From: Tetrahymena thermophila SB210
Lineage: Eukaryota; Ciliophora; Oligohymenophorea; Hymenostomatida; Tetrahymenidae
Reading direction: 5' to 3'
Length of the DNA: 64,000 nucleotides
Assembly: GCF_000189635.1 (NCBI RefSeq)
Contig: NW_002476320.1
Span: 186,001 to 250,000 of the forward strand
Below, one piece after another: positions 4,801-61,035 of this stretch. Within the stretch, counting starts at the first letter, position 1, and each line of letters starts with the position of its first letter. The notes below the pieces were generated by a model. It was not told the origin of the DNA. It saw nothing but the letters and a program-made list of their open reading frames with translations, and made no database searches. A program made the translations under genes and the position numbers.

Positions 4801-5549
4801 GAATTTTGATTGATCAAAAGGATCATGACACAGCTTAAGCACTGTGCAACCAAAAACAAGGCAAATTAGTGCCAATATTATTTAAAATATATTTAGAAAA
4901 ATATAATGAAACAATTGAGTAAGATATTTCAAACAATAGCTTTATAAGTACATCTTCTAGACTTTCTTAAGTAGAAGTTACAAAAAGCAAAAACACTCAA
5001 CAAAGCAAAGAATCAAAAAATGAGCAAATGTTGTATAAAAATTATTTAGATGATATTTTATACAAATACAGCTATTACCAAGATTTAAATCCTATAGATA
5101 TACTAAATTTAATTCCAGATGACTGGGTGATAGGCTCTTCTTCATAAATTAAGACTGTAACTGAATATGCTGATTAAAATTAAATTAGAAATAGGTAAAA
5201 CAATAATTTTATGAATAGCGATAATACAAACGAAGAAAATACTGCCCTGTACGAATTCCTTACCTAAGCCCTCTCTGAGACACTTTATGCTTAAAGGTAA
5301 GTAAGTTGTACTAAACATGCCTCAGAATCTTTGTTGCTAGAAAATAAAATTAAATTAATTAATTGTAAAAAAGCCTATATAACATGGTATAATGATAGAA
5401 AATGCGCAGCATGCAATAAAACCATAACAGAGTCCACTATCTTTGTTGTATATCCAAACGGTGTAGTTGCCCATCAAAGTTGTGTCAGTAAATCATTAAC
5501 AATCTGCCCCGAAACAGGATAAGACTTTGTTAAAACATTCAAGCTTTGA
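1840..5549 (+). CDS. Vps39/TGFBRAP1 (Vps3)-like HOPS/CORVET tethering subunit
   Basis: Predicted large coiled protein of the Vam6/Vps39/TGFBRAP1 family, whose members bridge Rab GTPases to the class C core for endosome or lysosome fusion. The start ATG is at 1840. Exon 1 (1840-2550) reads as a CNH-like beta-propeller, with segments such as VYIGYQSGTINIYQ and GSVLCADGDSLESLG. A phase-0 intron begins GTAATT at 2551; its acceptor is probably at 3065. Exon 2 runs open to TGA at 5547-5549, giving about 1,064 residues. The C-terminus carries the family's zinc-ribbon-like motif (CAACNK followed by AHQSC, about 5404-5480), and the middle is helical, as expected for the clathrin-like repeats. As I recall, Tetrahymena lacks HOPS-specific subunits, which would favour a CORVET Vps3 role. 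Family call fairly sure; the Vps3 versus Vps39 choice is inference. Confidence 0.8.
2551..3065 (+). other. Intron 1 of the Vps39-like gene
   Basis: AT-rich, full of TGA in the coding frame, begins GTAATT. The reading frame changes from positions 1 mod 3 to 0 mod 3 across it. Acceptors that keep phase 0 are at 3041, 3065 and 3083; 3065 best fits the rise in GC. Confidence 0.6.
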
Positions 5550-14057: not shown

Positions 14058-14199
14058 TTTTTTTTGTAATTAAATAAGTATATTTTCATATTTTTTTTAA
14101 TTTATTTTTACATTTTTGTAATAGTAGTCATTTTTTAAATTTTGCCTATCAAGAAAGTCCGACTTTAAAAAATATGAAAATAAAACTAATTACAAAAAT
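14058..14199. repeat. Imperfect inverted repeat, ~35-bp arms
   Basis: The left arm (about 14058-14096, including TTTGTAATTA and TTTTCATATTTTTT) is complementary with small gaps to the right arm at 14167-14199 (AAAAAATATGAAAATAAAAC and on). The spacer is about 70 bp. Confidence 0.5.
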
Positions 14200-14805
14200 A
14201 TATGTAAATGTGTTAAAAATTGATTATATTCTAGTAGGTTCGCATTATAATTTTCCTTTATATACAATCTCTGGTTCGAACTATATATTTAAGTACACAT
14301 TTTAAATAGAAATATTAAGATTTAATAATGAATGTTATCCTAACTTTTTTGTGATTTTTATTAAGAAAAGCATATTAATTAATTCATATAATTTATTTAT
14401 TCTTTTTTATCCACAAAAAAAGAATGATATAATAGGTTAAATATTACTGCAGATTAGAAGAAGTAATTATTTATTCTTTTATCAATATACTTTAAATTTA
14501 TATTTACTATTATTAAAAGTTTTTAAATTCTACACTTTAATCTCACTAAAATCTCTATATTGATCTGAGGTATATTTAATTATAAATATTATTATTCTTA
14601 TTATTAATAAATATTTTCTTTATATTTAACTTTCAGTTTATTTAAAAAACTATTTTACAAATAAAAATTGTCATTTAATTCATTCATTTTATTATTAAAA
14701 ATGTTTTTTTAGTTTATTTTAACTAAATTTTCACTTTAAATTTTTTAATTCATTATCCATTTTTTTATTATTTAATATTTTTATTAATTATTTCCTTCTA
14801 AAACT

Positions 14806-14875
14806 TTTAATTGATAAAAACAGTTTATTTATTTTGAATTATGATATTTTTATTTATAAAAATTAATTTAAAACA
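14806..14875 (+). pseudogene. Relic LRR intron unit that has lost its exon
   Basis: The sequence ATAAAAACAGTTTATT and the following stretch match the 5' part of the introns in the LRR array, down to the GATATTTTTA and TTTAAAAC segments. The donor GT is changed to GA, and the 90-bp exon that should precede it is missing apart from a few bases. It looks like a ninth, dead unit at the upstream edge of the array. Confidence 0.55.
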
Positions 14876-15058
14876 CTTTTAATTTATTTATTTGCTTTTT
14901 TAGCTATTATCAGATCATTATTTCTTCAGAAAGAAATTTACGTTTTCAACCTTTATTTTATTATTTATTTATTTATTTATTTATTATTATTTCATATTTT
15001 TACATTATTTTTCCTACTAAATAGCTATTTAATTCTATTTTTTTTCAATATTAAAAAG

Positions 15059-17524
15059 TAATAAATAAATTGGTGAGTAAGATGCATAAGAGTTAGGTTC
15101 TGCTTTAGCAAATTGCACTAACCTCTCAAATTTGACACTTCATCTTGAGTAAAACAGAATATTTGTTTTGGATTATGATATTTTTAGTTATAAATTTTTT
15201 TTAAATATTAAAAAGGTACAATTAAATTGGTGAGTAAGGTGCATCATGCTTAGGTTCTGCTTTAGTAAATTGCACTAACCTCTCAAATTTGACACTTTAT
15301 CTTGAGTAAAAACTGTTTGATTGCTTGGATTGCGATATTTTTAGTTATAAAAATGAATTTAAAATAATATTACTCCTTTAATTTGTTTTTTAGCTTTTTA
15401 TTGATTATTTTTTCTGAAATATTTTTTAATTTAACTCATTTATTTTTTTTATTTTCAACATTTACTTTTATTATTTATTAATTTATTTCTTATTATTTGA
15501 TCATTTTTTCCTTCTAAATAACTAATTAATTATATATTTTGTCATCAATATTTAAAAAGCAAAAATTAAATTGGTAAATAAGGTGCATCAGGCTTAATTT
15601 CTGCTTTCAAAAATTGCACTACTCTTTTAAATTTGACTCTTTATCTTAGGTAAAAACTGTTTATTTGTTTTTGATTGTGATATTTTTTGTTATTTTAATA
15701 AATTTAAAACAATTTAGCACTTTAATTTGTTTATTAACTTTTTATTTAATTTATTTATTTATTATTTATTGAATTATAGTTGTGTTTTTTTTTCTTATAT
15801 CTTTCTTAATTCAACTCATTTTTTAATTTCAGCATTTACTTTTATTATTTATTAATTCATTTCTTATTATTTCATATTTTTTTATTCATTTTTTCCTTTT
15901 AAACAACTAATTTTGTCTTCAATATATAAAAAGGGATAATTAAATTGGTGAATAAGGCACATCAGGCTTAGGTTTTGCTTTATCAAATTGCACTAATCTC
16001 TAAAAGTTGATACTTTATCTTGGGTAAAAACAGTTTATTTGTTTTGGATTGTGATATTTTTAGTTATAAATATGAATTTAAAACAATAAAAATCTTTTAA
16101 TTTTTTTATAGCTTTTTATTTAATTTATTTTTCTTTTAGTTTTTTGTTGTACTTGTGTTTTTTCTTCTTCTATCTTTCTTCATTTACCTCATTTTTTTAA
16201 TTTCAACATTTACTTTTATTATTTATTATTTTTTAATTTATTACTTATTATTTCATATTTTTTCTAAATTTTTTTCTAAAAAAAAAAATTAATTTTATTT
16301 TTTGTCTTCAATATTTAACAAGATAAAATTAAATTGGTGCAAAAGGTGCCTCAGGCTTAGGGACTGCTTTATCAAATTGCACTAATCTCTCAAATTTAAC
16401 ACTTGAACTTTGGTAAAAACAATTTATTTGTTTTGAATTGTGATATTTTTAGTTATAAAAATGAATTTAAAACAAAAAAACTCTTTTAATTTGTTTATTA
16501 GCTTTTTATTTAATTTATTTTTCTTTTAGCTTATTATTGTGCTAGTGTTTTTTCTTCTTTTATCTTTCTTAATTTAGCTCATTTTTTGGTTTTCAACATT
16601 TGCTTTTATTATTTATTAATTAATTCATTTCTTATTATTTCATATTTTTTCATAATTTTTTCCTTCTTCTAATGACTAATTAATTTTTTTTTCTTTAACA
16701 TTTAAAAAGGAGAAATTAAATTGGTGATTTAGGTGTATCAGGCTTAGGTTCTGCTTTAGCAAGTTGCTCTAGTATCTCAAATTTGACACTTCTTCTTGGG
16801 TATAAACAGTTTATTTGTTTTGGATTGTGATATTTTTAGTTATAAAAATGAATTTAAAAACATTATAATTCTTAAATTTGTTTATTTGCTTTTTATTTAA
16901 TTTATTTTTCTTTTCTTTATTATACTTTTGTTTTATTTTTATTATATCTTTCTTTATTTAACTCATATTTTTATTTTCAACATTTCCTTTTATTATTTAT
17001 TTATTAATTAATTTCATATTATTTCATATTTTTTCCTTATAATTAACTATTTAATGATATATTTTGTCTTCTATATTTAAAAAGGGAAAATGAAATTGGT
17101 TAATAAGGTGTATCAGGCTTAGGTCCTGCTTTAGCAAATTGCACTAATCTTTAAAATTTGGAACTTTATCTTAGGTAAAAGCAGTTTATTAATTTTGGAT
17201 TGTGATATTTTATTAAATAAAAGCTAATAAACAAAAAAAAGAGTTATATTGTTTTAAATTAATTTTTACAGCTAAAAATAAATTTATTTTTCTTTTAGTT
17301 TTTTTATTGTACTTATCTTGTTTTTTCTTCTTTTATCTTTCTTAATTTAGCTCAATTTTTTGATTTTCAATATTTGCTTTTGTTATTTATTAATTAATTT
17401 CTTATTATTTCATATTTTTTCAATATTTAAATAGGTACAATTAAATTGATGCAATAGGTGCATTAGGCTTAGGTTCTAGTTTAGCAAATTGCACTAAACT
17501 CACAAATTTGACACTTAATCTTAG
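15059..17524 (+). CDS. LRR protein gene (internal part): eight 90-bp, one-repeat exons
   Basis: Eight exons, each exactly 90 bp: 15059-15148, 15216-15305, 15560-15649, 15934-16023, 16323-16412, 16710-16799, 17085-17174, 17435-17524. Each follows an AAG or TAG acceptor, ends at a GTAAAA- or GTATAA-type donor, is symmetric phase 2 (1 base, 29 codons, 2 bases), has no in-frame TGA, and encodes one ~30-residue ribonuclease-inhibitor-type LRR. The shared pattern is NQIG..GASGLGSAL, then NCTNLSNLTL. LRR arrays of this type bind proteins. The introns (67, 254, 284, 299, 297, 285 and 260 bp) are alike in sequence, so exon and intron were duplicated as a unit. I could not find a sure first or last exon. 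A terminal exon at about 17718-17781 is possible but weak. All eight exons being open and spliceable argues for a live gene, but a partly decayed one is not excluded. Confidence 0.8.
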
Positions 17525-17570
17525 GTAAAAACAGTTTATTTGATTTGAATTGTGATATTTTTAATTTTTA
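15059..17570 (+). repeat. Tandem exon-plus-intron repeat, eight copies
   Basis: Unit of about 340-390 bp (the first is only 157 bp because of a short intron). Besides the 90-bp exon, the intron shares an opening block (GTAAAAACAGTTTATTTG, then GATATTTTTAGTTATAAA and GAATTTAAAAC) and a closing block before the acceptor (CTTCAATATTTAAAAAG). The middle has drifted. Confidence 0.85.
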
Positions 17571-17769
17571 ATTTGAATTTAAAACAATAAAATTCTTTTA
17601 ATTTATTTATTAGCTTTTTATCTAATTTATTTTTCTTTTACTTTTATATTCTGCTAATATTTTTTTATTTATTAATTTTCAATATTATTTTTAATGAAAA
17701 AAATTAAATCAACATAGTATTTTATTTTTAATTTAATAAAATATAAAAGTGAAAACTAAATCAATAGTT

Positions 17770-18380
17770 CATAAGAATTGAAAGTAAAAAGCAAGTGTCT
17801 TAAATCAAAAAGATTAGTTTTCTTTGAAATACATTTCTAATGGTGAAAAACTAGTGGTGAAAAAGGATGAATAATTGAAAAATGTGTTTTATAATATAAT
17901 ATTTTGTGTAACCTAAAATATATAAAGATTTATTATTTTTTTTATGATTTAAATATTTTAAAATATAACTGGTATATAAAAGCTTGGCATTTATATAATT
18001 TGATAAGATATAATATAATATTAAAATTTTCAAATTATTTGATCTTTTTTGGAGAAAACAGAGGGTTTGCTTAAGAGGAATTAATTTATTTAAGTAAATT
18101 TAATTTTTAAATTTTTTATTTTTTATAAATAATTTATTTACTTACAAAAATATGAATGATATTTATAATATAAAACAATTATAAAATCTATATGTCTATC
18201 TATTTATATTTTAGTTTAAAAAAACTTTTTCAAAATATTATATAATAAAATATATTATATAATTCAAGCATTTAATATTTATTCATCTTTTATTCGCCAG
18301 TGTTTATCAAAAGAAATATTATTTAAAGACAACTAATCTTTTTGATTTAAGAAACTTGCTTATTACTTTGAATTCTTATG
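17770..18380. mobile_element. Putative inverted-repeat (MITE-like) element
   Basis: 17770-17827 and 18324-18380 are nearly perfect reverse complements (TTAAATCAAAAAGATTAGTT in one arm, its complement in the other). Weaker pairing extends inward to about 17885 and 18269 (GATGAATAA and TTATTCATC). The ~380-bp centre is AT-rich with no transposase seen. It could be a MITE or relic transposon end, or a locus folding into a long hairpin RNA. Confidence 0.55.
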
Positions 18381-18903
18381 ATTTATTCTTTTAGCTAATA
18401 ATTTTATAATTTATTTTAAATAGTATCAAATAGAAAAAACTATTTAAAATAAAAATTATTTCTTCAATTAATAAATAAAATAATATTAGAAATCTCAAAT
18501 AAAAACAATACAGACTTTATGGAAATCAAAAGTATAACAAATATATTAATAATAAATTAAGTAATATCTAAGAATTTGAAGATAATTTAGACAAATAAAG
18601 TGGAGTTGAAGAATCTGACTTAAATCTTTTATGAGATTCTCCTACTAAGAAATAATTAATAAATAAATAAATAAATAAATAAAAAAATTTACAAAATTTA
18701 ATTTCAGATAATTATTATATCAGATTTTCAAAATTTAATCTTTTTTTTAAGCTAAACATTTTAAACATTTGTTTAAATTTCTATTAATTTAATATTTATT
18801 AATATAGATAGTTTATCAAAATTATAAATCTTTTAAATCTATTTGATTTATGCTTATTACTTAAAATATTTTTTGTTATAAAATATTTATTATATTTTTT
18901 TAA

Positions 18904-20211
<1,308 letters not shown>

Positions 20212-27591: not shown

Positions 27592-28796
27592 TTTAATGTT
27601 ATATGCACTTATTAGACTTTGTTTAAATTCTTCTCACTTTTTACCTAAAAATTAATTTCAGCCGATTAATAGAGCTAAGTAAATCTTCATAAATAATTAA
27701 ATCAAAAAAAAGAAATAAGATGTAAATTGAAATCTCTTTTGAAGGCTAACTAGTTATCTCTTGAAATTCTGTAATATGAATGTGGTAATACAATATAACA
27801 TATAAAAAACATAAATTATGTGGTATTTAGATACTTAAAAACTAATAAATTTATCAATTATTTTATATTATTTACAAGTAAATTACATGTCATTAATTAT
27901 TTATTAACTTTTCCATTTTACAATTCTAAAATTAACAATTAGTTAATGAAGTAAAAAAATTAGAATTTTTAAATCTAAAAATTGTAACAAAAAAAAAAAA
28001 TTATATTTCTGGCGTTCTTAGATTAAAATTAATTTAGTATTTAAGACTTGCAAGTTTTAAGAGGCTCGATTTAAAAATAAATTGTTTTATAAAAACTTTT
28101 TCAATTTGCTTCAGTAGAAAATTTAAAAATAAATGAATAGCTTACACTGGCTTTGCTTATTTACTATTCATGAATGAATATTGGCAGCATTTAACTATAT
28201 CAAACAAACTCCTTTTACGAGCATAATTTTTTATTTATTCATTCATTAAAATTCGATATTTGATTAAAATAAAATTATCAAATTGAATTATTTATAGAAA
28301 GTAATTCGTTTAGAAATTCAAATGAATTAAATACAAACAAAAAAGTTAAGTCATAAAAAATAATCCTTGCTCAAAAACTCTAAAATGAAAAGTTTTCATG
28401 TTTTAAGTTGTAATTTTCTTCAATAATTTGTTTATTTGTTATTATCTTAAATTATGCAATGTAAATTATAATAACTAATAAAATCAAACAAATTTGTTAT
28501 TTTTTGATATTTTATTAAACAATCAATTTAAATAGCATAAAATTTATCATTCAACATACATGTAATCTTTTTTCTAAATAAAACGATCAAAATAGAGGCT
28601 ATTTTTTCAAATCAATCATGATAATTTATTTTTCTTGTCAAAAATAGTTTTAAATAAATTTATTTTTTAAGACTTATTCTCTTTTTTAAGCCTTTTTTGA
28701 TAGGAAGAATATTAATAATTTCTTTCACTCTTAATTACTAAAATAAATTAATTGCTTATGTCATATATGAAATTTGCATACTTTTGTTGGTTGTAA
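27592..28796. other. Intergenic, upstream of the cysteine-rich gene
   Basis: AT-rich. It should hold the promoter of the minus-strand gene. No open frame with coding character was seen. Confidence 0.6.
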
Positions 28797-29316
28797 GGTG
28801 TGGTTAAAATATTTTACACTCAGCAAATTAAATATAAGAATATAATAGGTTTATTTATTATGATTAATTGATTGGTTAAAAAAATGTAATCATAATAGCT
28901 AATTAATTATTGAAGCAAAGAAAATAATATGGCGATACTGATCGATTTGTTAAAAGAATTAAATTTTAGGGGGTGTTAAAATATTTTATACTCAGCAAAT
29001 TAAATATTATAATATAATAGGTTTATTTATTGTGATTAATTGATTTATTAAAAAAATTTAATCATAATAGCTAATTAATTATTGAAGCAAAGAAAAATAA
29101 TATGGCGATATTGATCGATTTGTTAAAAGAATTAAATTTTAGGTGTGGTTAGAATATTTTATACTCAGCAAATTAAATATAAGAATATAATAGGTTTATT
29201 TATTATGATTAATTGATTGGTTAAAAAAATGTAATCATAATAGCTAATTCATTATTGAAGCAAAGAAAAATAATATGGGGATATTGATCGATTTGTTAAA
29301 ATAATTAAATTTTAGG
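28797..29316. repeat. Three tandem ~173-bp repeats upstream of the tRNA cluster
   Basis: Copies at about 28797-28970, 28971-29142 and 29143-29316 are nearly identical. Each contains TATTTTATACTCAGCAAATT (first copy TTTTACACTC), a TAGGTTTATTTATT block, and ATTGATCGATTTGTTAAA (first copy ACTGATCG) near the end. No coding potential seen. Confidence 0.92.
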
Positions 29317-29362
29317 TAAAAGCTTAAAAGAAACATGAGATTAGATTTATAGATAATATAAT

Positions 29363-33400: not shown

Positions 33401-34427
33401 AATTGGGAATAGCTATTTTCTAAATACATAGATTTTTAAGATTTATGTGAGCTCATTAAATGTAAGTTAGAGTCTCAAAAAGATAATTATCAACAAAATT
33501 CTACACTAGAATTAAATTTCAGCAATCTAAATTTAGAAGACATCCACATCAAGATTTTTTCAGATTTCATCACACAATTCCCACTCGCATAAAAAATAAT
33601 TTGGAGTTTTAGGTACTCAAATTCTTACTCACTATTTTAGATATTAAAATTTACTTTTATATCCACTTTAAAACCTTTCAAAACTATCTTAATATCTATT
33701 ATTAAAAAGATTAAAATAAATTATTAATCCAAATTAAAACAAGAAAATTTTATTCACATTATTATTCAACACAAAACTTATATTCCATCTCTTTAGTTTA
33801 TCTTCTACAAATCATTACCATGTTATTTATTTATTTTGATATGACTAAATTTTTTATTGATTAATTTATTTATTTGATTATATTTAAATAATAGTGGAAA
33901 TTTGATAGAGGATGCTGGATTATCTTCTCTTTCATAGGCGTTAAAAAAATTCCCTCACCTTTTAGATTTAGAATTATGGTTTTTGTAAAATAATTAATTT
34001 TAATATTGTTATTGAATAAAACTTTTAAAAAAATAAAAGATGCAATAAAATTACTGACAATGGTTTATAAGTTTTATGTGACTCTTTAAAATCTATAACG
34101 AATATATAATAGCTTTGCTTAAACTTCTAGTAAATAATTTACATATTATGATTAGTTTGTTTATATTCAAATGAATAAATTATGTAAATTAGGGAAAATA
34201 AAATATCAGATAAAGGAATTTTGAGTATTCCAGTTTGCTTAAAAAATCACCAGAATTTGATAAATTTAAATTTGCATTTTGGGTAAATTATTTTGAAAGA
34301 ATGTCCATTAAAGATAATTTAATTTATTTAAATTAGATGGAATTACATTTAGGATGAAGATTAAGTTATATAAATGTTTGATAATTAATTTAAAAATAAA
34401 ATAAAATACTACTAGTTAGATGTCTGA
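30416..34427 (+). CDS. Pseudokinase-kinase-LRR protein
   Basis: Multi-exon gene, start ATG 30416, stop TGA 34425-34427. The first kinase-like domain (30416 to ~31757) keeps the lobe order and a Lys in VVKIKK, but its glycine loop is GTGKQSLV, the catalytic loop reads HRNIKPSN (HRD Asp to Asn), and DFG is replaced by DLQ; it is probably inactive. The second (about 31870-33390) looks complete: GAGSQGIV, VALKIQ, HRDIKPQN, ADFGFA, GTPMYSAPE, SDIFSLG. Clear exons include 31827-32157, 32209-32400, 32907-32959, 33016-33072 and 33125-33612. The tail is LRRs: three exons of exactly 90 bp, phase 2 (33895-33984, 34040-34129, 34193-34282; e.g. NKITDNGLQVLCDSLK), then a short last exon 34337-34427. A regulated kinase with LRR target binding is inference. 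Exons around 31150-31385 are approximate. Confidence 0.85.
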
Positions 34428-38562: not shown

Positions 38563-41500
38563 CTATAAATAAAATTAAGAGTATTATTAATGATAATGAA
38601 AGGATAAATGCGGAATGCTTTAAGCCTTGATATTAAAAAAGCTTTCTAATAAAATTTTTTAAGAAAGAAAGAGTAAAATTACTTTTTTTAGTAAAAAAAT
38701 TCTTAAACTTTTTAGCAAACAGCATTTTTTAGGGTGAATTAATTATAGGTCTATTTATTGTTTTTGAAGAAATCTAGCTTTGATTTTAATATTTTTTTTA
38801 CTTAACTTTATTTATTAAAGCAAGCTGGCTATTAAAAGAGATGGGTAAATTTTAATTTTTGATATTAAGAATAATTATTTATTTATTGTAAATAAATTAT
38901 CTAAAACAGCATTTACTTGCTCATTATAACACTTTTGGCACCAAAATATGTATTTATTAAATCATTAGCTGGAGCATTTTGATTCAGCTAATTCAGATAC
39001 CATAATAGATAGATAGATAGTAGTACCAAAATCTTATTTTAAATTTTGTTATATATTTCTTTATATAAAATTGCTTAACTGCTTAACATAGATTCAATTT
39101 AATAATTGGTACCCATAACAATCAATTATTCATAAATCATATAAAGCTAATCAATCAATATGAATTTAAGGTAAAAATTAAATCACCCTACTTTGTTTTT
39201 TTATTATAAATAATTAGCCAATAAACCTTCTTGTTATTCTTCGAATCTGAATTTCATATATCTCTAAACAAATTATAATATTAAAAAAATATTAATAATA
39301 TTTAGAATATGCAAACATTTCTAAAGTTCTAATGCATATCTAATCATTAAGAAAGTATATCGATTCATCAAATTATGAAATAAAACATTGCATTTATATT
39401 TAAGTATTAATTATATCTACTTGTTATTTAGAATATTTTAAAAATAAAAGCTGTAATTTAGAATATTTTAAAAATAAAATAGAAAATATTATTTATTGTT
39501 ATATTCATCAATAATAAAGAACAATTAAATACAATAATAAATTACAAAAGTTTTTATACTTTTTACATTTAAGCATGCTTTAATTAAAAAGTGCAAGATG
39601 ATTTATTTAAAACTTTAGAATTTTGTTATTTTTAATATGGAATAGAAATAAAAAAGCAATAAATGATATTTATGGTATTTACAACTGATTTGCTTTTATT
39701 TTTGAATTCATTTACATCTAAACTATTTTCACTACAATATTTTACTATTTTATCATTTTATAATCCCTTATTTACATTTGAGAAATCGTATAAATCATTA
39801 TCAATTTTTATAATTGCACTCTTTTTTTAATAGATCAATTCAAGTACGCCTAAAAAATGTAGTCAAAAATATAATAAAGTTTTAGTTCGCAAAATAAATA
39901 AAATATCTAATGTTATTTATTTAAAGATTTTATTTAATAAGTTAATAATTTGATTATATATTACAATATTATCCATTTTCTCGCCCTTGTGTTAAGGTTA
40001 AAAAGTAGGTAGAGGTTTTTTAAATTTCCAAATTTAGGGCTCCTTCAGCTACTTTGTCGATTTCGCTTATCAGGAAATAGGGTATATTTTGTTTATTTGA
40101 AGGTAATAATCATTTAAGATGAAATCAAAGATTGAATACTTAATTTAGAACCAAATAGATATATTAATTAATTTCACCTAATAAGTAGTTAAATAATTTT
40201 TTATTTTCTAAATCATGGATATTCATTCTATGTATCTATTTAATCTATAATTCTTGATTGAATCTAAGTTCCATTCAATTTTATTTTAATTTCAAGCATT
40301 AAAGTTAGAAAAACACAATCAATAATTTACAACCCACTCGTATAAAAAAAATTTAAGACATTTAACTCCATTTTTAAATAATATTTGTTTATTAGAAGGA
40401 AATAATCACTTAAGATGAAATCAAATATTGGATCGATCCTTAATTTAGAACACAATAGAAATGTTAATTAATTTTCGCCTAATAAGTAGTTAGATGATTT
40501 TTTATTGTCTAAATTATGGAAATTCATTCTATCTATTTAATAAATATATAATTCTTTATTGAATCTAAGTTCCATTCAATTTTATTTTAATTTCAATCAT
40601 TAAAGTTAGAAAAACACAATCAATAATTTACAACCTACTCGTATAAAAATAGCTAAAACCATTTAACTCCATTTTTAAATATCCAACCTTTCCTGAAGAT
40701 AATGCATTCAAAGAGATGGTTATTATTAAGAATGTGATGAAAATAAAGCCTAAAATATAATTTTTTGACCCTTGTTTATGTGAAGAATTAGATTAATTTC
40801 ATTTATTTGCAAGCTATAATAATTTTAAGTATTGTCTTTAAAAAATAATTTTACTTATTTAAAGATAACAACATTTCTTTTTATTTCAGCTTTAAATAGA
40901 TTTATGAAATTTTTAAAGGATCTTTATTGCTATAAGATAGATAGACATTTGCTTTATTTATCTCCATGTTTATTAATTTTTTACTAGATTTTATATCAAG
41001 TAAATATTATTCATATGTAAAAAAGCTTTATAATTGTATCTTTAAGTTAAAAATGGTATCAGTAACATTACAAATACAAAGAGTAAATGATATATTTTAA
41101 TAATTTTATTAAGTGATCTAAGTAGATTATTAAATTAAAGTATTAAAAATTAGAAATATTTTAAAAATTTGCAGAACATATTTAAATAAATGTATTTGTT
41201 ATTTTTGAAATAGCTCCTACTTTATTTTTCAAAATTTAAAAGCAATGTTAAGCTTTCAAAAATAATCTGTAATCATGATATTCTTCTTAATAATAATGGA
41301 TTGCTTCACAGAAATGAATTTATTATTATTAACAAATGCTAGAATAGAAATATATGACCTTTTAGTTAGTAATTATGAAGGATCCAAGTTTAATTGTTGG
41401 TTTTAAATATTATTTTAATAATAAGATAATGCTTAAAAAATGCATAAAAAATATTTAAATGATTTACTATGTAATTAGCTACACTTTATTTTCAAAAATT

Positions 41501-49969: not shown

Positions 49970-52900
49970 TCAAATTTAAGATTTAGTTTGTTTTAAGAAA
50001 TCAATTCCTTCAAAATCTTCTTCATCAATTTCAAGAGTTTTTTTAAAGCAAGAAAGAGATTTGCTTGCCTTTTCTTGGTCTTGGTAAATCATTCCCAAAT
50101 TAATATATGCATTGATGCCAGTAGGATCAATATTTATTGCCTTTTTATAGCAATAAATAGCTTAGCTATCAAGTTGCTTCTCCTCGTATGCTATTGCCTA
50201 ATTGTAGTATCCATAATAGTAATTTGGATCTATTTCTAAGCATTTTTAATAGCAGACAATCGCATCATCAAACATTTTTTTTTCTAGGTATATGTTACCT
50301 AATTTATTATAACCATTAATAAAATTTGGATTTTTCTCAATTGCTTTTCTGTAATTTTCTATTGCCTTGTCTAACATCTTCTTTTCTTCATAAATGAGAG
50401 CTAATTTGTCATATGCTTCAAAGAAATTTGGGTCCATTTCTATTGCTTTATTAAGACACTTAATTGATTAGTCCTTCATCTTTTTGGTATAGTAAGAATA
50501 GCCTTGTTTGTAATAATCAATAGCACTCTTTTACACGTTGATACCAAAATCTGAGAGTAAATTATCTACATCAGGTTCATCTATACCTCCTGTTTTTAAA
50601 AGTAACTAAGTCATTCTTGTGAGTGTCTTAACATCATTCGGATCAACTTCCAAAGCCTTATTATAAAACTCTAAGGCTTTTTAATTTTAGTTTTTCATTT
50701 CATATGCGAGTCCTGAATTATAAAGAGATAGTATGTACCTAGGATTTATTTATAGTGCTTTCTGGTAATATGAGAGTGCCAAGTCATCGTTTTTTAGATT
50801 ATAATAAACAAGTCCGATGTTATTGTAAGCAACTACCTATTTTGGGTCTATTTCTATTGCTTTTTCGTAACACTCGCGAGCCTTTTCGTACTTAATTTAT
50901 TTTAAGTAAATATTACCTAATTTAATATATGCATTAGCGTATTTAGGATTTAATTCTATGGCTTTAGAAAAACAAGTTATTGCTTCATCAAACATACTTT
51001 TTTCTTAATAAGCTACTCCTATCTTATGATGTAATTCAGGAACATCAGGATTCTTTTCAATTATTTAATTATGGAACTCTTTTGCTTCGAATAGTGTTTT
51101 CTTTTCTAAGTAAATTGCCATCAAGCTGAGAACAGCATCATAGCATTTTGGATTGGTTTCAAAAGCTTTTTAGAAATTTTAAATAGCATCTTCATACATT
51201 TAATAATATTGATAAACAAGACCTAACTTGTCATAAGCTTCAGAATAATTTGGTTCTATTTCAATAGCTTTTTTCAAACAATCTATTGATAGGTCTTTAA
51301 TTTTTTTAATGAAATAAGTAGATCCCTGGATAAAGTAATCTTTAGCAGATTACGGAATTTTATCAGCTTTTAAATCAATTTCAATTTCTTCTAGATTTTT
51401 ATCTTTGTTTTCATTTATCTTTTAAATTCTAGTTAATGTTTTCTTATCATTTGGGTTTATTTTAAGAACTTTGTTGTAGCATTCAAGAGCTTTATCATTC
51501 ATTTTCTTAGTTTCATAGACTAAGCCAGAGTTGTAGTAAGATAGATCATAATTTGGATCTACTTCTAGAGCTTTATTATAAAATTGAATTGCTTCATCAT
51601 ACTTATTCTATTTAAAATGCACTAATCCAATATTATTATATGCTACTGCTTACTTTGGATTAATTTCTACTATTTTATTATAGCATTCTAAAGCTTTTTC
51701 ATACTGTATTTTATTCAAATAAGTATTACCTAATTCAATGTAAGCATTTATATGTTATGGATTTAATTAGATTGTTTTTTAATAATAATCTATTGCTTCG
51801 TCAATCATGTATTTATCAGCAAAGACATTTCCTATATTGTAATAGGTTTCTGTGTTCTTAGGTATCGAATTGAAAAATTCTTTGACTTCATTCAACATGT
51901 TTCTATTGTGATATATTTCGACAATATTACGAATAGATTCTAAGCTTTTAGGGCTTAGTTATATCGCTTTTTTATAATTTTCAATAGCCTCATCAAACAT
52001 TTTTTTTGATTAATAAATAAATCCTAATTTTCCATAAGCTTCGTAGAAGTTTGGGTCTATTTCTATAGCTTATTAAAGACATTGTATTGATTCATCATCT
52101 TTCCCTTAAATGTAATGTAAAAATCCTTTTTAAAAGAATTCTTCAGCTTTAGAATTTGAATTCTAAATTATATTCTTATTTAATTCGTTTAATAAATTAA
52201 ATTCATCTTTTTAAGTTTTATCTTCTAATATTTTCTTTCTCTTCAATGACTTTTATTCAGTAGGGTTTATTTCCAGCACTTTATTGTAGCATTCAAGAGC
52301 TTTTTCTTTTAACTTCATTTTTTCATAAATTAATCCAGAGTTATAGATAGGCAATTCATATTTAGGATTAATTTCAATAGCTTTGTTATAATATTCAAGT
52401 GCTAAATCAATCTTTTCTTAATTGTAATAAATTAGACCTATATTGTTATAAGCTATCACATCATTAGGATCTATTTCTAATGCTTTCTTATAGCATTCTA
52501 TAGCTTGATCATACTAAACTTTGTCTAAATAAGAATTACCAAGCTAAATGTAAGCACTTTTGTATTTAGGATCTTATTCAATCGCCTTCTAATAATTAGA
52601 AATTGCCTCGTCAATCATATTCTATCTTTAATAAATTATTCCCATTTCATAATAAGTTGTGGCACATTTTTGAATAGAGTCATAAAAACTTTTTGCTTCA
52701 CTGATCATTTTTTTGTCTAAATAAATATTCATCACAGATTTTATAGCGCTATAGCATTTAGGATTAATTTCGATAGCTTTTTTGTAACTTTCTATTGCTT
52801 CTTCAAATTTTTTATTTGCTTTTTATAGAAGTCCTATTTTTTCATAAGCTTCAAAATAACTTGGATCAATTTCTAATGCTTTTTTGTAGCATTCGATTGC

Positions 52901-55900
52901 TTTATCATCTAACAATTTATTGTAATATTTAAACCCTTAATCTAAGTAATCCTTAGCAGTTTGAAATTCTGTGTCTTGTTTTTACACATTTTATTGCTGT
53001 TCTTCTACTTCCATTTTATCAGTATCATTACTTAGGGCGTTGATTCTTGATAAAGCTTTTTTTTCAGTGGGGTTTAAGGCAAGAACTTTATTGTAACACT
53101 CAAGAGCTTTTTCTTTTAAATTTTTTCTTTCATAAACAAGCCCTGAATTATATAGAGATAGCTCATATTTTGGATTTTATTCCAGAGCTTTATTGAAATA
53201 TTCAAGAGCTAAATCATCATTTTTTTATCTAAAATGCACAATTCCTATATTATTATATGCAACGGGTTCTTTTGAGTTTATTTCTAATATTTTTTAGTAG
53301 CATTCAAGAGCCTTTTCATAGTATAGCTTGTTTAAATAAACACTACCAAGTGAAACATAGGCATCAATATCTTTATTGTTTAATTCAAGTACTTTCTAGT
53401 AATTATTTATAGATTCGTCTAGCATGTTTTAATTTTGATATATCTATGCTAATTCATAGTATGTATCTGAGTTCTTTGCTATTGAATCATAGAAATCTTT
53501 GGCTTCGTTGACCATTTTTTTATTTAAATAAATGTCCATCACTATTTTAATAACTTTGAGTAATTTAGGATTTATTTATAGTGCCTTTTTGTAATAAATT
53601 ACAGCCTCTTCAAACATCTTTTTTTGCTCATAAATAAATCCTAATCTTTCATAGGCATCGCAGTAGTTAGGATTAATTTCAATAGCTTTTTTTAGACACT
53701 CTATTGACATGTCATATTTTTGCTCCATAAAATATAGAAATCCTTATTTGAAATATTCTTCAGCTTTTGATGTAAACTCTTTGCCTAATTTCTTTTATAA
53801 AACTTTCAGTAAGTCAAATTTTTCATTTAACGTTTTATTTTGCTTTTACTTTATAATTTGTATTCTACTAAGCGATTTCTATTCATTAGGATTTATTTCA
53901 AGAACTTTCCTGTAGCATTCAAGTGCTTTATCATTTTAGTCTTTCCTTTCATAGACAAGACCAGAGTTATAAAGAGATAGCTCATATTTTGGGTTTATCT
54001 CAATAGCCTTTTAGAATTATTCAAGAGCTAAATCATTCATTTCCTATTCGAAATACACAAGCCCTATATTGTTATAAGCTATAGCTTTTGAAGGATCAAT
54101 TTCAATTATTTTTTTATAGGACTCGATAGCTTTATCAAACAAAAGTTTATCTAAGTAAGCGTTACCTAATTAAATGAAAGCGTTAATATATTTTGGATTT
54201 AATTCTATGGCTTTCAGATAACTTTCAACAGCTTCATCAAGCATTTTTTAATCTTGATATACTAGTCCAAACTCATAATAAGTTTCAGCACATTTAGGGA
54301 CTTGATTGTAAAAATCTTTAGCTTCATTGATCATCTTTTTATCTAAGTAGATATTCATTAAGCTGTTAATAGAATCAAATGATTATGGATTTATTTCAAT
54401 AGCCTTTTTATAGTTTTCAATCGCTTCTTCAAATCTATTATTTTCTTCATGTACAAGACCTAATCTGTCATAGGCTTCAAAATAATTTGGATCTAACTCT
54501 ATTGCTTTCTTTAAGCACCTTATTGAATCTAAATCTTTGATTTAATTGTAATATTTAATACTTTGCTCATAATAATCTTTTGCTGTTTGAAGATTACTTT
54601 CTTAGTTCTCTAAATCAATAGTTGGATCTTCTTTCTTTTTGCTTAAAAATTCGATTCTAGACAAGGATTTTTTGTTGTTTGGGTTAGCAGCAAAAGCCTT
54701 TTTATACCATTCAAGAGCTTTATCCTTCTAATTCATTTTTTCATATACAAGGCCAGAATTGTACATAGATAAATCATATTTTGATTCTACCTCTATTGCT
54801 TTAGTAAAATACTCTAGAGCTTCATCATTCATACCTTATCTAAAGTACACAAGTCCAATATTGTTATATGCAACAGCTTTCTTAGGATCTATTTCTATTA
54901 TCTTTTAGTAGCTCTCAAGTGCTAAGTCATACTGAGGTTTATCTAAGTAAGCATTACCCAATTAAATATACGCTTTAATATATTTTGAATTAAGCTCAAT
55001 AATTCTTTTATAAATTGCTATTGATTCATCAAGCATCTTTTGAGTTTAGTAAACTACTGCCAATTCATAGTATGTATCTAAGTTTTTAGGAACTTAATCG
55101 TAGAATTCTTTAGCCTCATTGAGCATTTTTCTGTCCAAGTAAATATTCATGACCTCCTTGATAGCATTCAGACAATTTGGATTTATTTCAATAGCTTTTT
55201 TATAATTCAAAACTGCTTCATTAAACATCTTTCTTTCTTTGTAGACAAGTCCTAACTTATCATAAGCTTCAAAGTAATTTGGATCCAGCTCAATAGCTTT
55301 TTTAAGACATTAAATAGATTATTCATCCTTAAGCTATTAAAAGTAAAGATATCCTTATTGATAAAATTCTTTAGCAGTGCTTGGAGCTTTATCAATTTTT
55401 TTCTCTAAAATTTTATTTTGTAAGCTAATTTTCTTTATTCTAGTGAGTGATCTCTCCTCATCTGGATTCAATTATAGAACTCTATTATAACATTCTAGTG
55501 CTTTGTCAATTTAATTTTTTGATTCATACGCAAGACCAGAATTGTAAATTGATTATTAAAAGTCAGGGTTTATTAAAAGCGCATTGTTATAATGTTCAAG
55601 AGCTTTATCAAACATTTTCTTTTCATAATACACTAATCCTATATTATTATGAGCGATAATTTCTTAAGGATTTATTTGAAGTACGTTTTCGAAACACTCA
55701 AGAGCCTAATCATTCATTTATTTATCTAGATATATATTTCCTATTTCAATATAAACATCAACATTAAAAGGCTCTAATTCAGTTATTTTTTAGTAGCAAT
55801 CAATTGCTTCATCAAACATTTTGTTTTCCTGATAAGCCTCTCCTATTTACGCAAGTGCTTGTGTACTATTTTGATTATCTTCGATTACTTTTTTGTGAAA

Positions 55901-58639
55901 TTATTTTGCTTCATCCATCATTTTCTTTTCTTTATATAGTCCCATAATGATTCCAATAGCGCTGTAATATTTTGGATTTATTTCAAAAGCTTTTTTATAG
56001 CTTTCAATGGCTTATGAAATCATTTTTTTTTCTTTGTAGAGAAGACCTAATTTGTCGTACGCATCAAAATATTTCGGGTCTAATTCAATAGCCTTTTTTA
56101 GACATTCTATAGATTTTGCATCTTTCCTTTAAATATAGTAAACAAACCCTTATTGGTAGAAATCTTTAGCACTTTTAAGATTCTTGTTTGCGTCTTAAAG
56201 TATTTCTTCCAAATTTACATTATTTTTTCCATCTTTTTAATTTAATTAATCAATTTTAGAAAGTGCTTTTTTATCTGTAGGATTTATTAATAGTACGTTT
56301 TTATAGCATTCTAGAGCTTTATCAATTAAATTTTTTGATTCATAGACGAGTCCAGAATTGTAAATTGCTAGTTCATAATTTGGATTTATTTCCAAAGCTT
56401 TTTTGAAGCTCTCAAGAGCTTTATCATCCATCTTCTAAGTAAAATAGAATAATCCAAAATTATTTAACGCTGAGGCACTATTTTAATCTATTTCTAGTGC
56501 TTTTTCTAAGCATTGCTGTGCCTTATCATATATTGCTTTACCAGAATAGATATTGCCTAATTCAAGATAAGAATTTATGTACTTAGGATCTAATTCTATC
56601 GCTGCCTAAAAGTAACGCATAGCTTCTTCCATTTAATTTATATTTGAGTGAAGTAATCCTAAGCTATGATAAAACTAAATATATTTTGGATTCAGCTTAA
56701 CAGCATCTTCATAGTTTTTGATAGATTCCTAAACAAAGCTTGCTCTACTAATTTCTAATTCCTCGCTTAAAGAATAAATGTTCTTTAAAATTTATTCACT
56801 GACTTTATTGTAGCATTAAAATGCCTCATTTTACATATTCTTTTAAGAGTAAACATTTCCTTATCTAACAAAGACAATAAAGTATTTTGGACTCATTTCT
56901 TCTACTTTATTATAATATTCTAAAGCTTCATCAAGCATTTGCTTTGATTCATAAGCTACTCCGATATTATAATAAGATAAATAATATGTTGGATCTATTT
57001 CTATTACTTTTTTAAAGTAATTGATAGCCTCGTCAAACATATTTTTCTAAGAATAAATATACCCTAAATTATTTAGGCCATCTAAATTATTTTCTTCTAT
57101 AGTGAGCAAAGTTTAATAGCATTTAATAGCATCCTCATAAATCTTCTGATTTGTATAAAGAGCTCCTAAATTAATTAATGCACTCACAAATTTTGGGTTA
57201 ATTTCTAAAGCCTTTTTATAACATTCTAGCGCTTCTTTAACATTTCCTAAATGTGAATAAGCAATACCGCTATTAAAATGTGCTTCTTAACTATTTGGAT
57301 TTAATTAGATTGCTTTTTTATAACATTGCAAAGCCTCTTCTAAATTTCCTTATTTTTTGTAAGAAATACCTAAATATAAATGAGCGCTCAATTATTATGG
57401 GTTTATTTCAAGTGTAATTTTATAGTGATTGATTGCTTCTACTAACATATTTTTTTTATAATACAAATCTGCTAAGCTATAATGATCAAAATAACTTTAA
57501 GGATCTAATTGAATGATTTTTTTGAAACACTCTATTCCTTCATCTAGCAGATTATTATCAATACAAATATCTCCTAGTCTTGTCAAGGATTTAAGAAAAC
57601 TAGGGTTGATTTCAATTGTTTTTTTATAGCATTAAATGGCTTCATCTATCAATTTTTCTTTCTCATAAGCAAGAGCTGAATTGTGATATGCTTTGTAATA
57701 CTTGGGATCTATTTCAAGTGCTTTCTTGTAGGATTCAAGCGCTTCTTTTATCATACCTTTATAATAGTATATAAGTCCTATGTTGTTGTAAGCATCTACT
57801 TATTTTGGATCAATCTCTATTGCTCTTCTATAGCATTAAAAAGAATCATCAAAGTTATTCTAATTTTAATAAATTAGCGCTAAGTTAAATTGAGCATTAT
57901 AATAGTTTGGGTCTATTTCAATTGCTTTTTTGTAATATTTTATAGCCTCTGAATTATTTTTTTCGTTCTAATAAACAAAGCCAAGTCTTTCATAAGCTTC
58001 AACAGAATTCGGTTCTATTTCTATAGCTTTTTTGAGGCTTTTAATCGCATCTTAAATTTAGAAATCTAAATAATAGTTACGAGCTAAACTAATATAAGAT
58101 TTAGTGTATTTAGGATCTATACTTTGGGCTTTCAAGTAACATTAATAAGCTTATTGAATCAGGCCTTTACCTTCATAAACAATACCTAAGTTATGATAGG
58201 CCTCTGTACAATTTGGATCTATCTCAATAGCTTTTTTATAGCATTTTATAGCTTAATCTATAAGATTTTATGCTTTATAGGTGAATCCTAATCTTTCATG
58301 AGCATTCGCGTTATAAGGATCAATTTCGAGCACCTTTTTAAGGCAACTAATAGCGAAGTCTAGGATTTTTTATTCTAAATAAATACCTGCCTTACTTATA
58401 TATGCATTCACGTGGCTTGGGTTTAAATCTAATACTTTATTAAGATATACAAGAGACTCATCTATTAATTTTTTTGACTAATAAGTCAGTGCTAGATTGT
58501 ATAATGCTTCCGTATTATTAGCGTCAATTTCTAAAACTTTTTTAAAGCATTCTACAGCCTCATCTAACATGTTTTACTTTTAAAAGTCAATTCCCTATTT
58601 AAAAAGCACTTGACTATCCACCATATCTATTTGATTCAT
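49970..58639 (-). CDS. Giant tetratricopeptide-repeat (TPR) protein
   Basis: One uninterrupted frame of 8,670 bp, ATG 58639-58637 to TGA 49972-49970, 2,889 residues, no intron. Nearly all of it is 34-residue TPRs (e.g. [27 protein letters not shown]), roughly 75 to 80 by eye. TPRs form a superhelical protein-binding scaffold; no enzymatic domain, signal peptide or TM was seen. From about 56300 down to 50660 the TPRs fall into super-repeats of about 783-819 bp (261-273 residues), each with a short charged non-TPR linker followed by (A/S)(K/E)(D/E)YFxQG-like and [10 protein letters not shown] repeats. The N-terminal ~780 residues are more regular TPRs without linkers. The last residues are FLKQTKSQI. 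The partner is unknown; ciliates have many TPR proteins, including ciliary ones, but nothing here shows location. Confidence 0.95.
50620..56320 (-). repeat. Coding super-repeats of ~800 bp inside the TPR gene
   Basis: The repeat encoding [13 protein letters not shown] (plus-strand anchor ATTCAAGAGC-like) recurs at about 50669, 51481, 52291, 53098, 53917, 54709, 55492 and 56308, spacings 812, 810, 807, 819, 792, 783 and 816. Each anchor is next to a linker of variable sequence. Confidence 0.9.
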
Positions 58640-61035
58640 TTATTTAGTCTTTTATTAATAATTTAATCTATAGAATATTAAAAGATATCTATCTGATAAC
58701 AATTTTTATTAATATTTATTATGTAAGGAGAGTTCAATGTATTTATTTCTTCTATAAGGCGCTTTTATCAGAAAATAACTCTTAACAAATACATATTTAC
58801 CAAATCAAAATATTTGATAGAATCAATAGATTATTCATATCTCTGAGAATGTATAAATGAATTTCTTTTATTCAATCAAATTACGAATATCATTAAAGCG
58901 AATTTGCATCAAAAATAAATTCTAAGTAGACAAACATTAATAAAGAAAAGTTTGAATGAGTTAAATAAAATCAATTCAATAAAATTTTAAAATATATTTT
59001 AAATAAAAAATTCAATTTAATTTTTAAGTTAAATCACGAAATAGTTAAAGTATATAATTTATTTATTGTTAAAAATTTCATCAATAATGTATAAATTAGT
59101 AATTCTTATAAATGAATCCATTTTTACTAGTAATTATAAATTCGTTCCTAATAATTTATTCCCGCAATTTAGAAGTATTTTCAAAGAATTCTTAATTAAA
59201 ATAGAAAGACATAATTTCTTTCATCTAATTTAAATATTTGATAGTAAAAATTATTTGGCTCAAAATTAAATTTTTATGATCAGAAAATTTCAGATTTAAT
59301 TAATTTAGAACAAACTAGATTTCCTATCTCAATTCTATGAAATATTATTATTTCTTGAATCATTCTTATAAAATATTTCAAATCAAAAAATTATAAAAAT
59401 AATCATATTATATCGAGATTCTTTTTATATTTTAATAAAAAAAAATAGTAATAAAAAAATATTTTGATAAAAAAATTAATAGTGACTAGATATTAAATTA
59501 AATAATATACACTTTATGTTAGACTTTGAATTGATTGATTTGATGCAATTGTATTTATTTTAAAAATAAAATATTTAAAATAAATTATAAATTCTAATTA
59601 TCATTTAAAAATATAATCCCAACAAATGAACAAATGTTTGACTTTTATTTATTTTTTTAATGCTTTTAAATTTAGTTTTATTCCTTTTTAATTTCCTTTG
59701 TAAAGCAAATCAATTTCTATTTAGATATTTATAACTGAATGCCTTTATAAAATCTATTAAATTATCATTATTTTTTTGAAAGGCCTTTATTTTTTAATAT
59801 TTTTTTTTTGCATGAAAATATTAATGATAAGAATAGATTTTGATTTATAGTTTTTTTAATTTTTAAAAAGCTAGCTTGTAAAATATCTTAATTAAATAAT
59901 GTTATTAACAAAATAATATCTATCTATTTATTTTTATCTTGAAATAATCAAATTTAATTTACCTAAATATGTTAAAAAGTGAAGTTTTTTTCATTTTGAT
60001 ATTTTTAAATAGAATAACAAATATTCATAAAAATTTTTAGGATTTTTTTTAAAAATGTAATTCATAGAGTAAAAATCCAACAAATAAGTTGTTTTAGAAA
60101 AGTATTTATCATGAACTTTTTAAAAAGGAAAAATGAAAAATATTTTTGACTACTTTAAACTGCTTGTTGCCTTAGCGAAAGAAAAAATAAAATTTCAAGA
60201 GATATTAGTATATTGAGAAATCATTTAAGACTTTTTCCTTATAAATCAATTAATTAATATAGATAGATGTTTTTGTATGAAAATAAAAGTGTTTTTAAAT
60301 TAATAAATTATTATTCATTCACTTAATTTTTTAAATATTAACCTGAAATTTCATTCCACCAAAGTAATCAAAGACTTAGAGAGCCGAAAGAAACTAATCT
60401 AACTATGCAGATGTTTAGCTAATAAATTTCTACTAAATCTATGTTATTAGGCTAAGTTAAAAGCCATATACCTACAATAGGGTAAATCAATTAGATATTA
60501 GCTCATCAAAGCACTAATATCTATCATTGAGTTTCTTTGAGGCATTCATATTTTTTCTAATTAGACTTTCAATTTTTTATTTCTATTAAATGATTATGCA
60601 AATTTTAATATTTAAACTTTTTAAAATAATTTTATCTTCAAATATTATGGTTCATTCTTGTTATTATAAAAATAATAATTATTTTATATTTGAAAATAAA
60701 GTATATTTTAATTTAATTATTCAATTCATTATTTTATTATATTTTTATTTATTTGTATGTGAATATTTAACGATTTAATTGAAGAGATGTTAGTATATTT
60801 GAAAACTAATTAAATCTTCTTTTTGATAAGGCTTATTTTTATCTGCCAAATTAATCTAATTTCTTTGAATTAATCTCTATAAATAGTGACATTCAAAATC
60901 ACTTTTGCATATATAGTTTTCACATTGAAATAAAAACACCTGTTTTTAGTAAAAAAGCAAACCTCTCAGCCTACTCTTAGTAAGTTAGTAACCCAGCCAA
61001 CCCCCCTAATCTCATAGCGTTAATCAATAACAAAA
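58640..61035. other. Intergenic, between divergent TPR and kinase genes
   Basis: AT-rich. The promoters of both flanking genes should lie here. The only candidate is a 41-codon frame at 60405-60530, listed separately. Confidence 0.6.
60405..60530 (+). CDS. Doubtful small ORF, 41 codons
   Basis: ATG 60405 to TGA 60528-60530. The patch is less AT-rich than its surroundings. Part of it (MLLGQVKSHIPTIG) faintly recalls the ARF segment before switch I (compare KLGQVVRTIPTIG in the gene at 35515), so it may be a relic of an ARF gene; the match is short and could be chance. Confidence 0.25.

Follow-up and report, generated by a model that had tools for sequence, protein, structure and literature searches.

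The closest described system is a family of leucine-rich repeat (LRR) genes in Tetrahymena, termed group III, whose coding region is built of 90-bp exons (Xiong et al. 2019, PMC6564038). According to that paper, T. thermophila carries 1,874 LRR genes, and the group III exons are exactly 90 bp long, as a rule at least three of them consecutive, with phase-2 introns whose main length peak lies at ~257 bp in this species. Group III is formally defined by masking with at least one consensus repeat of the set CRS1-8. The same text describes an association with a REP retrotransposon tail and a pericentromeric or subtelomeric germline position, and gives a median Ka/Ks of ~0.4 for young LRR genes, which was read as purifying, relatively relaxed selection. 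Searching its text for "positive selection", "hypervariable", "first exon" and "last exon" gave no hit.

A second system with one LRR per exon is found in the ROCO genes of brown algae (PMC11378527). As reported there, the exons are 72 bp long and phase 2, are subject to exon shuffling and alternative splicing, and encode LRRs joined to ROC-COR GTPase domains; sites 14, 16, 18 and 19, which lie on the concave face, show positive selection. The LRR exons of gonadotropin receptors are named in the same source.

The locus described here lies in a window of 64,000 nucleotides (T. thermophila SB210, contig NW_002476320.1, positions 186,001 to 250,000); all coordinates refer to this window. A telomerase reverse-transcriptase locus of the same genome fits this source: two of its exon stretches, ~100 and ~135 residues long, are identical to the solved chain 6d6v_A, the T. 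thermophila enzyme, with differences at the ends and across a read-through intron. A preliminary description had recognized eight 90-bp, phase-2 LRR exons with good splice sites and free of TGA, with no evident first or last exon. All eight exons were re-derived with this length and phase, each flanked by AG and GT and free of TGA under genetic code 6, in which TAA and TAG are read as glutamine. Both end exons exist as well, just beyond the range first quoted, at 14424-14569 and 17750-17846. The gene consists of 10 exons on the plus strand. Splicing them computationally gives a frame of 963 nt that encodes 320 residues with a single stop at its end, while the other two frames contain 9 and 12 TGA codons. 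Every one of the nine modelled introns is in phase 2.

The first exon (14424..14569) begins with ATG, has 48 codons plus two bases and ends in phase 2 at a GTATAT donor; its translation is MIQQVKYYCRLEEVIIYSFINILQIYIYYYQKFLNSTLQSHQNLYIDL. Preceding it is a conserved region (14260..14423, plus strand) that from its position is probably 5' UTR or promoter. In 23 aligned upstream regions, most of its columns have one majority base at 60% or more, a minority being lower, and an in-frame TGA is present at 14352, upstream of the ATG. Intron 1 (14570..15058, 489 bp) contains part of the repeat-type intron sequence. The LRR exons are located at 15059..15148, 15216..15305, 15560..15649, 15934..16023, 16323..16412, 16710..16799, 17085..17174 and 17435..17524. 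Each starts on the third base of one split codon and stops after the second base of another. The seven introns between them are 67, 254, 284, 299, 297, 285 and 260 bp long, six of the seven thus being long. The short one (15149..15215) forms with exon 1 a 157-bp tandem unit that is a near-duplicate, with exon 2, at 86% matches. The last intron (17525..17749, 225 bp) ends at a phase-2 acceptor at 17749. The last exon (17750..17846) contributes one base and 31 codons (...KVKSKCLKSKRLVFFEIHFQW), with terminal residues ...KSKCLKSKRLVFFEIHFQW and a TGA ending at 17846. The gene is thus whole and apparently intact, with predicted splicing.

The reading of the locus as a gene with one LRR per exon was borne out by the exon translations, which all follow one LRR pattern, xNQIGxxGxSGLGSALANCTNLSNLTLxL, presumably of the ribonuclease-inhibitor type. 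A check against LRR profiles, which had been proposed for the translated exons and was run here on the spliced product, gave matches above the cut-off to the Pfam families LRR_6 (35.2 bits, cut-off 23.4) and LRR_4 (34.2 bits, cut-off 27). At an E limit of 0.01, the 320-residue product matched LRR families only. The predicted protein is a family-typical N-terminal piece, eight LRRs of this presumed type and a short basic C-terminal piece.

The earlier description had pointed to a Tetrahymena LRR family with 90-bp phase-2 exons; this family is real and is the group III of PMC6564038. The window gene resembles its members in having tandem 90-bp exons, phase-2 introns, long and mutually similar introns, a variable number of exons, and repeats that are alike at the nucleotide level across many genes. 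With 90-bp exons in phase 2, LRRs, nucleotide-alike units, long introns and a Tetrahymena host, the gene is classed as a group III member by exon length, phase, LRR and nucleotide likeness, the formal definition being CRS1-8 masking. Introns like those of the window are longer, with a median of 284 bp among 249 introns picked for likeness, than the ~257 bp peak of group III in the published text. As to chromosomal position, no telomere repeat is present in the first 180 and last 209 bases of the contig carrying the gene.

The likeness to the brown-algal genes extends to single-LRR exons in phase 2, to exon shuffling and to variability on the concave face. The differences are exons of 90 rather than 72 bp and a product that matches only LRR families, with no ROC-COR. 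Since ROC-COR is absent and the exon length is different, the window gene is not a member of the LRR-ROCO family; the two lineages are independent and what they share is a design. The LRR exons of gonadotropin receptors also resemble the window exons in their similar size, one LRR each and phase-2 introns. The window exons belong to a family with hundreds of members. Gonadotropin receptors are membrane receptors of animals in which the number of repeats is stable, and they do not form a rapidly expanding family.

Several other features occur in the window. A putative orphan last exon of a convergent LRR gene lies on the minus strand at 18307..18394, with a phase-2 TAG acceptor followed by QKNKSQEFKVISKFLKSKRLVVFKQYFF and TGA, placed tail to tail with the window gene; no group III-type LRR exon that could belong to it was found on the minus strand of the window. 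Just past it is a (CTAA)n tract of ~95 units (18908-19286). Three more 90-bp, phase-2, TGA-free LRR exons on the plus strand (33895-33984, 34040-34129 and 34193-34282), separated by introns of 55 and 63 bp, are weakly like the group III profile and look like an older group II array. On the minus strand, a cysteine-rich frame at 23624-25522 matches Giardia VSP and growth-factor-receptor models and includes a 441-bp unit in ~1.9 copies, and a single open frame at 49973-58801 encodes 2943 residues, largely TPR repeats (65 TPR_1 matches). Tandem repeats are present at 28796-29317 (173 bp, 3 copies, 92% matches) and 40088-40681 (301 bp, 2 copies, 88% matches).

Searching the 101 Mb genome (445 contigs) with the reported stretch gave at least 352 matches at E up to 0.001. 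From 20 of the 30 listed clusters, 20 similar regions were fetched, chosen for likeness to the locus and all from this single genome. The repeat units of the window gene and of these 20 loci formed the comparison set for codon-level change. The sample comprised 181 exons with introns of 180-400 bp on both sides and with no N and no TGA. Pairs were formed from units with similar upstream introns, and distances were then taken from the exon and the downstream intron; no unit entered more than one pair. Of the resulting 75 pairs, 44 were inside one locus. The values are pairwise counts, not a codon model on a tree.

Relative to the introns, the rate of change of the structural codons is 0.3 to 0.64. 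Over the 75 pairs the introns differed at 0.131, 4-fold silent sites in core and remaining codons differed at 107/770 (0.140) and the first two bases of the core codons at 0.040, and codons 1, 28 and 30 at 0.553. The ratio of these three codons to the intron was 4.21 (bootstrap 3.8 to 4.65), and under a stricter cut that left 15 pairs it was 7.05 (5.05 to 10.54). For the five window exons with two long introns (ten pairs), pN was 0.518 at codons 1, 28 and 30 but 0.038 in the core, with introns at a distance of 0.147. Codons 1, 28 and 30 had been chosen by eye from the entropy of the same data, which is circular; the comparison was therefore repeated with a set taken from the LRR motif and with split loci. 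The exposed set of the LRR beta-strand (26, 28, 30, 1 and 3) changed at 3.5 to 5.7 times the intron rate over three cuts. When the loci were split at random 20 times, the top three codons were 1, 7 and 30 in 20/20 splits, with held-out ratios of 4.0 to 4.8.

Individual codons were then set against a neutral rate of 0.20, deliberately high compared with the 0.14 measured at 4-fold sites, using the 75 non-overlapping pairs and Bonferroni correction. Codons 26, 28, 30, 1, 3 and 7 exceeded this rate, the most variable being codon 30, which is split by the intron. Codons 2, 4, 12, 16, 18, 21, 22, 24, 25, 27 and 29 fell below it; as 0.20 is strict for fast codons and lenient for slow ones, the slow set was also held against 0.14, where ten of the eleven stay slow and codon 29 fails. 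Fast and slow codons alternate through the strand: 28 is fast, 29 slow, 30 and 1 fast, 2 slow, 3 fast and 4 slow. The alternation tracks the LRR motif rather than the distance from the splice site.

Codons 26, 28, 30, 1 and 3 would be surface-exposed on the inner beta-sheet, where LRR proteins usually bind, if the repeats fold as their motif predicts. By the spacing of xLxLxxN in our own motif alignment, they include the counterparts (26, 28, 30 and 1) of the brown-algal sites 14, 16, 18 and 19. We take the fast-codon pattern to be diversifying selection for recognition. A gene-level Ka/Ks below 1, such as that published for young LRR genes, does not exclude fast sites. An NG86 omega computed across all codons (1.76 for the eight window exons, 1.16 for sampled pairs of 272) was discarded as evidence, because the method ignores base composition and mixes the codon classes. 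By frame, NG86 gave 1.73 in the true frame vs 0.61 and 0.92 in the shifted ones. Mean entropy was alike at the three codon positions (0.614, 0.615 and 0.609).

The fast codons could instead be merely tolerant of change or hypermutable, with no positive selection, a reading we regard as unlikely. They are LRR surface positions, which tolerate change, and recombination may decouple the histories of exons and introns. The larger, overlapping pair sets also show their silent third-base sites slightly raised, at 578/3892 vs 6497/51410 elsewhere in 3,000 random pairs (p = 9e-5) and 147/1161 vs 1580/14725 in 837 similar pairs (p = 0.04). In 76 non-overlapping pairs, however, these sites were not raised (9/133 vs 156/1381, p = 0.14). 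Tolerance, moreover, cannot carry a codon past the neutral rate, and the fast codons exceed both the 4-fold sites and the introns. Nor does proximity to the splice site explain the pattern, since codon 29, flanked by 28 and 30, is slow, as is codon 2 beside 1. Aligning AT-rich introns with gaps makes them look less diverged, and in random pairs fixed-register intron blocks reached 0.42, with codons 1, 30, 7 and 28 at 0.53 to 0.66.

A position-weight matrix seeded with the eight window exons and scanned over the 20 fetched regions and the window found 281 similar sites, 272 of which have AG, GT and no TGA; the AG and GT columns belong to the matrix, so that their rate is partly built in, and the absence of TGA was not directly scored. 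Of the nine failing sites, seven lack AG (one of them partly N), one lacks GT and has a TGA, and one lacks GT only. A search that allowed gaps returned 284 matches, of which 279 are close to full length and 5 partial. Net indels were present in just two of the 279, of 3 bases and 1 base, vs ~0.04 gap openings per aligned base in introns of random pairs. The bare signal of AG, 90 bases and GT would not suffice, as 141 of 248 such intervals on both strands of the window are TGA-free in that phase. An origin by chance or as a satellite was rejected on the combination of frame, splice sites, end exons and a paralogous family of exons.

Both end exons are common to many paralogues. In 19 of the 20 regions there is a match to the DNA 5' of the array that overlaps 14183 to 15057, the best matches having ~67-79% identity. 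First exons could be aligned for 23 of 32 arrays, eight others having less than 900 bases upstream and one being left out. A strict test (ATG, phase 2, no TGA, GT) was passed by 12 of the 23, including the window gene; the test tracks alignment columns, so a few of the failures may be alignment faults. Among the 11 that failed, one is N-filled, one has no ATG and the rest are frame-shifted. Loci with a frame-shifted or ATG-less first exon are L009 (minus array), L010, L015, L016, L018, L021, L023, L026 (second array), L027 and L028. From these failures, some family members may be dead copies, or else the result of misassembly or misalignment. The core motif of the first exon occurs at 404 places in the genome with up to 2 mismatches, and the reversed pattern at 10. 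A last exon was found in 26 of 29 aligned downstream regions, with an AG within 30 bases, a phase-2 frame, a KRLV-type motif and TGA; three further arrays had too little DNA. Its tail pattern occurs at 209 genomic places and the reversed pattern at none.

The preliminary description had argued that symmetric phase-2 exons let such a locus grow or shrink by single repeats, and the paralogues agree. In the fetched DNA and the window, 19 of 32 arrays carry both end motifs, and 14 of the 19, those with no step above 600 bp, hold 5 to 16 90-bp exons each. Among the other five, L011 has 21 exons around a second last-exon motif, near 5308 on the array strand and between exons 10 and 11. It is probably two genes or a fusion, and the upper limit of 21 exons per gene was for this reason dropped to 16. 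As array sizes vary and exon indels are few compared with intron gaps, units appear to come and go while the length of the exon is kept.

Against this background, the window gene could still be a dead or never-expressed copy whose tandem units are homogenized in the manner of a satellite. The introns too are fairly conserved between units, with a majority base at 75% over intron positions +6 to +60 vs 85% in the exons; the strict first-exon test was failed by the 11 loci mentioned, one of them N-filled; and there are traces of rearrangement nearby in the orphan last exon and in a private intron inversion. The latter is a segment of ~69 bp in intron 7 (17212..17280, no strand assigned), recognized from the orientation of paralogous matches: of 273 matches in other fetched loci, 270 are opposite to it relative to their own array, one, a weak match, has the same orientation and two are away from any array. 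A dead copy is nevertheless quite improbable given the uninterrupted 963-nt frame, with 9 and 12 TGA in the other frames, the slow change of the structural codons relative to the introns and the near absence of net indels among the exons.

The least probable alternative is an ordinary structural LRR scaffold, for instance a cytoskeletal or ciliary one: among the 14 solved chains matched by the product are dynein regulatory complex subunit 5 (two entries) and radial spoke protein 15, but LRRs of the ribonuclease-inhibitor type probably match each other generically, which would give these hits little functional weight, and a fast inner face and hundreds of family members are ill-suited to a fixed structural part. 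The best match was 9y6s, named only "Leucine-rich repeat protein" (E 2.8e-12), and 5irm_A, labelled "Uncharacterized protein", which we take to be NOD2, is also among the 14.

The account we prefer, and hold to be probable as a whole, is that of an intact 10-exon group III LRR gene whose inner face diversifies, whose array grows by crossover in introns and whose product binds variable partners. The repeats would stack as a horseshoe. Unequal crossing over within introns would gain or lose whole repeats in frame, because the internal introns are all phase 2 and mutually similar. Residues 26, 28, 30, 1 and 3 together with the loop residue 7 would be under diversifying selection. If these residues are under diversifying selection, binding of variable partners is the most likely consequence, and the variability of the repeats at the would-be contact residues hints at a recognition role. 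A patch of the inner face (28, 30, 1 and 3) would combine residues from the 3' end of an exon with residues from the 5' end of the following one. Phase 2 thus makes each such patch span two exons, with the split codon 30 in it, and any crossover within an intron would therefore make a new patch as well as alter the repeat number.

The family was known already; for a codon-level selection pattern of this kind in Tetrahymena LRR genes no earlier report was found in a search that covered few subscription papers. The fast inner face combined with a conserved frame points to the binding of variable partners and names the residues of interest, and the clear ends of the gene allow it to be cloned or tagged as a unit. 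Tetrahymena would be a second lineage, besides the brown algae, in which one-LRR-per-exon phase-2 arrays are found alongside diversification of the concave face. As a tentative extension, which we consider possible rather than probable, the family may be a germline recognition repertoire of a single-celled predator, in which an intron crossover would add a repeat and at once yield a fresh patch with a different split-codon residue, the brown algae having independently arrived at something alike.
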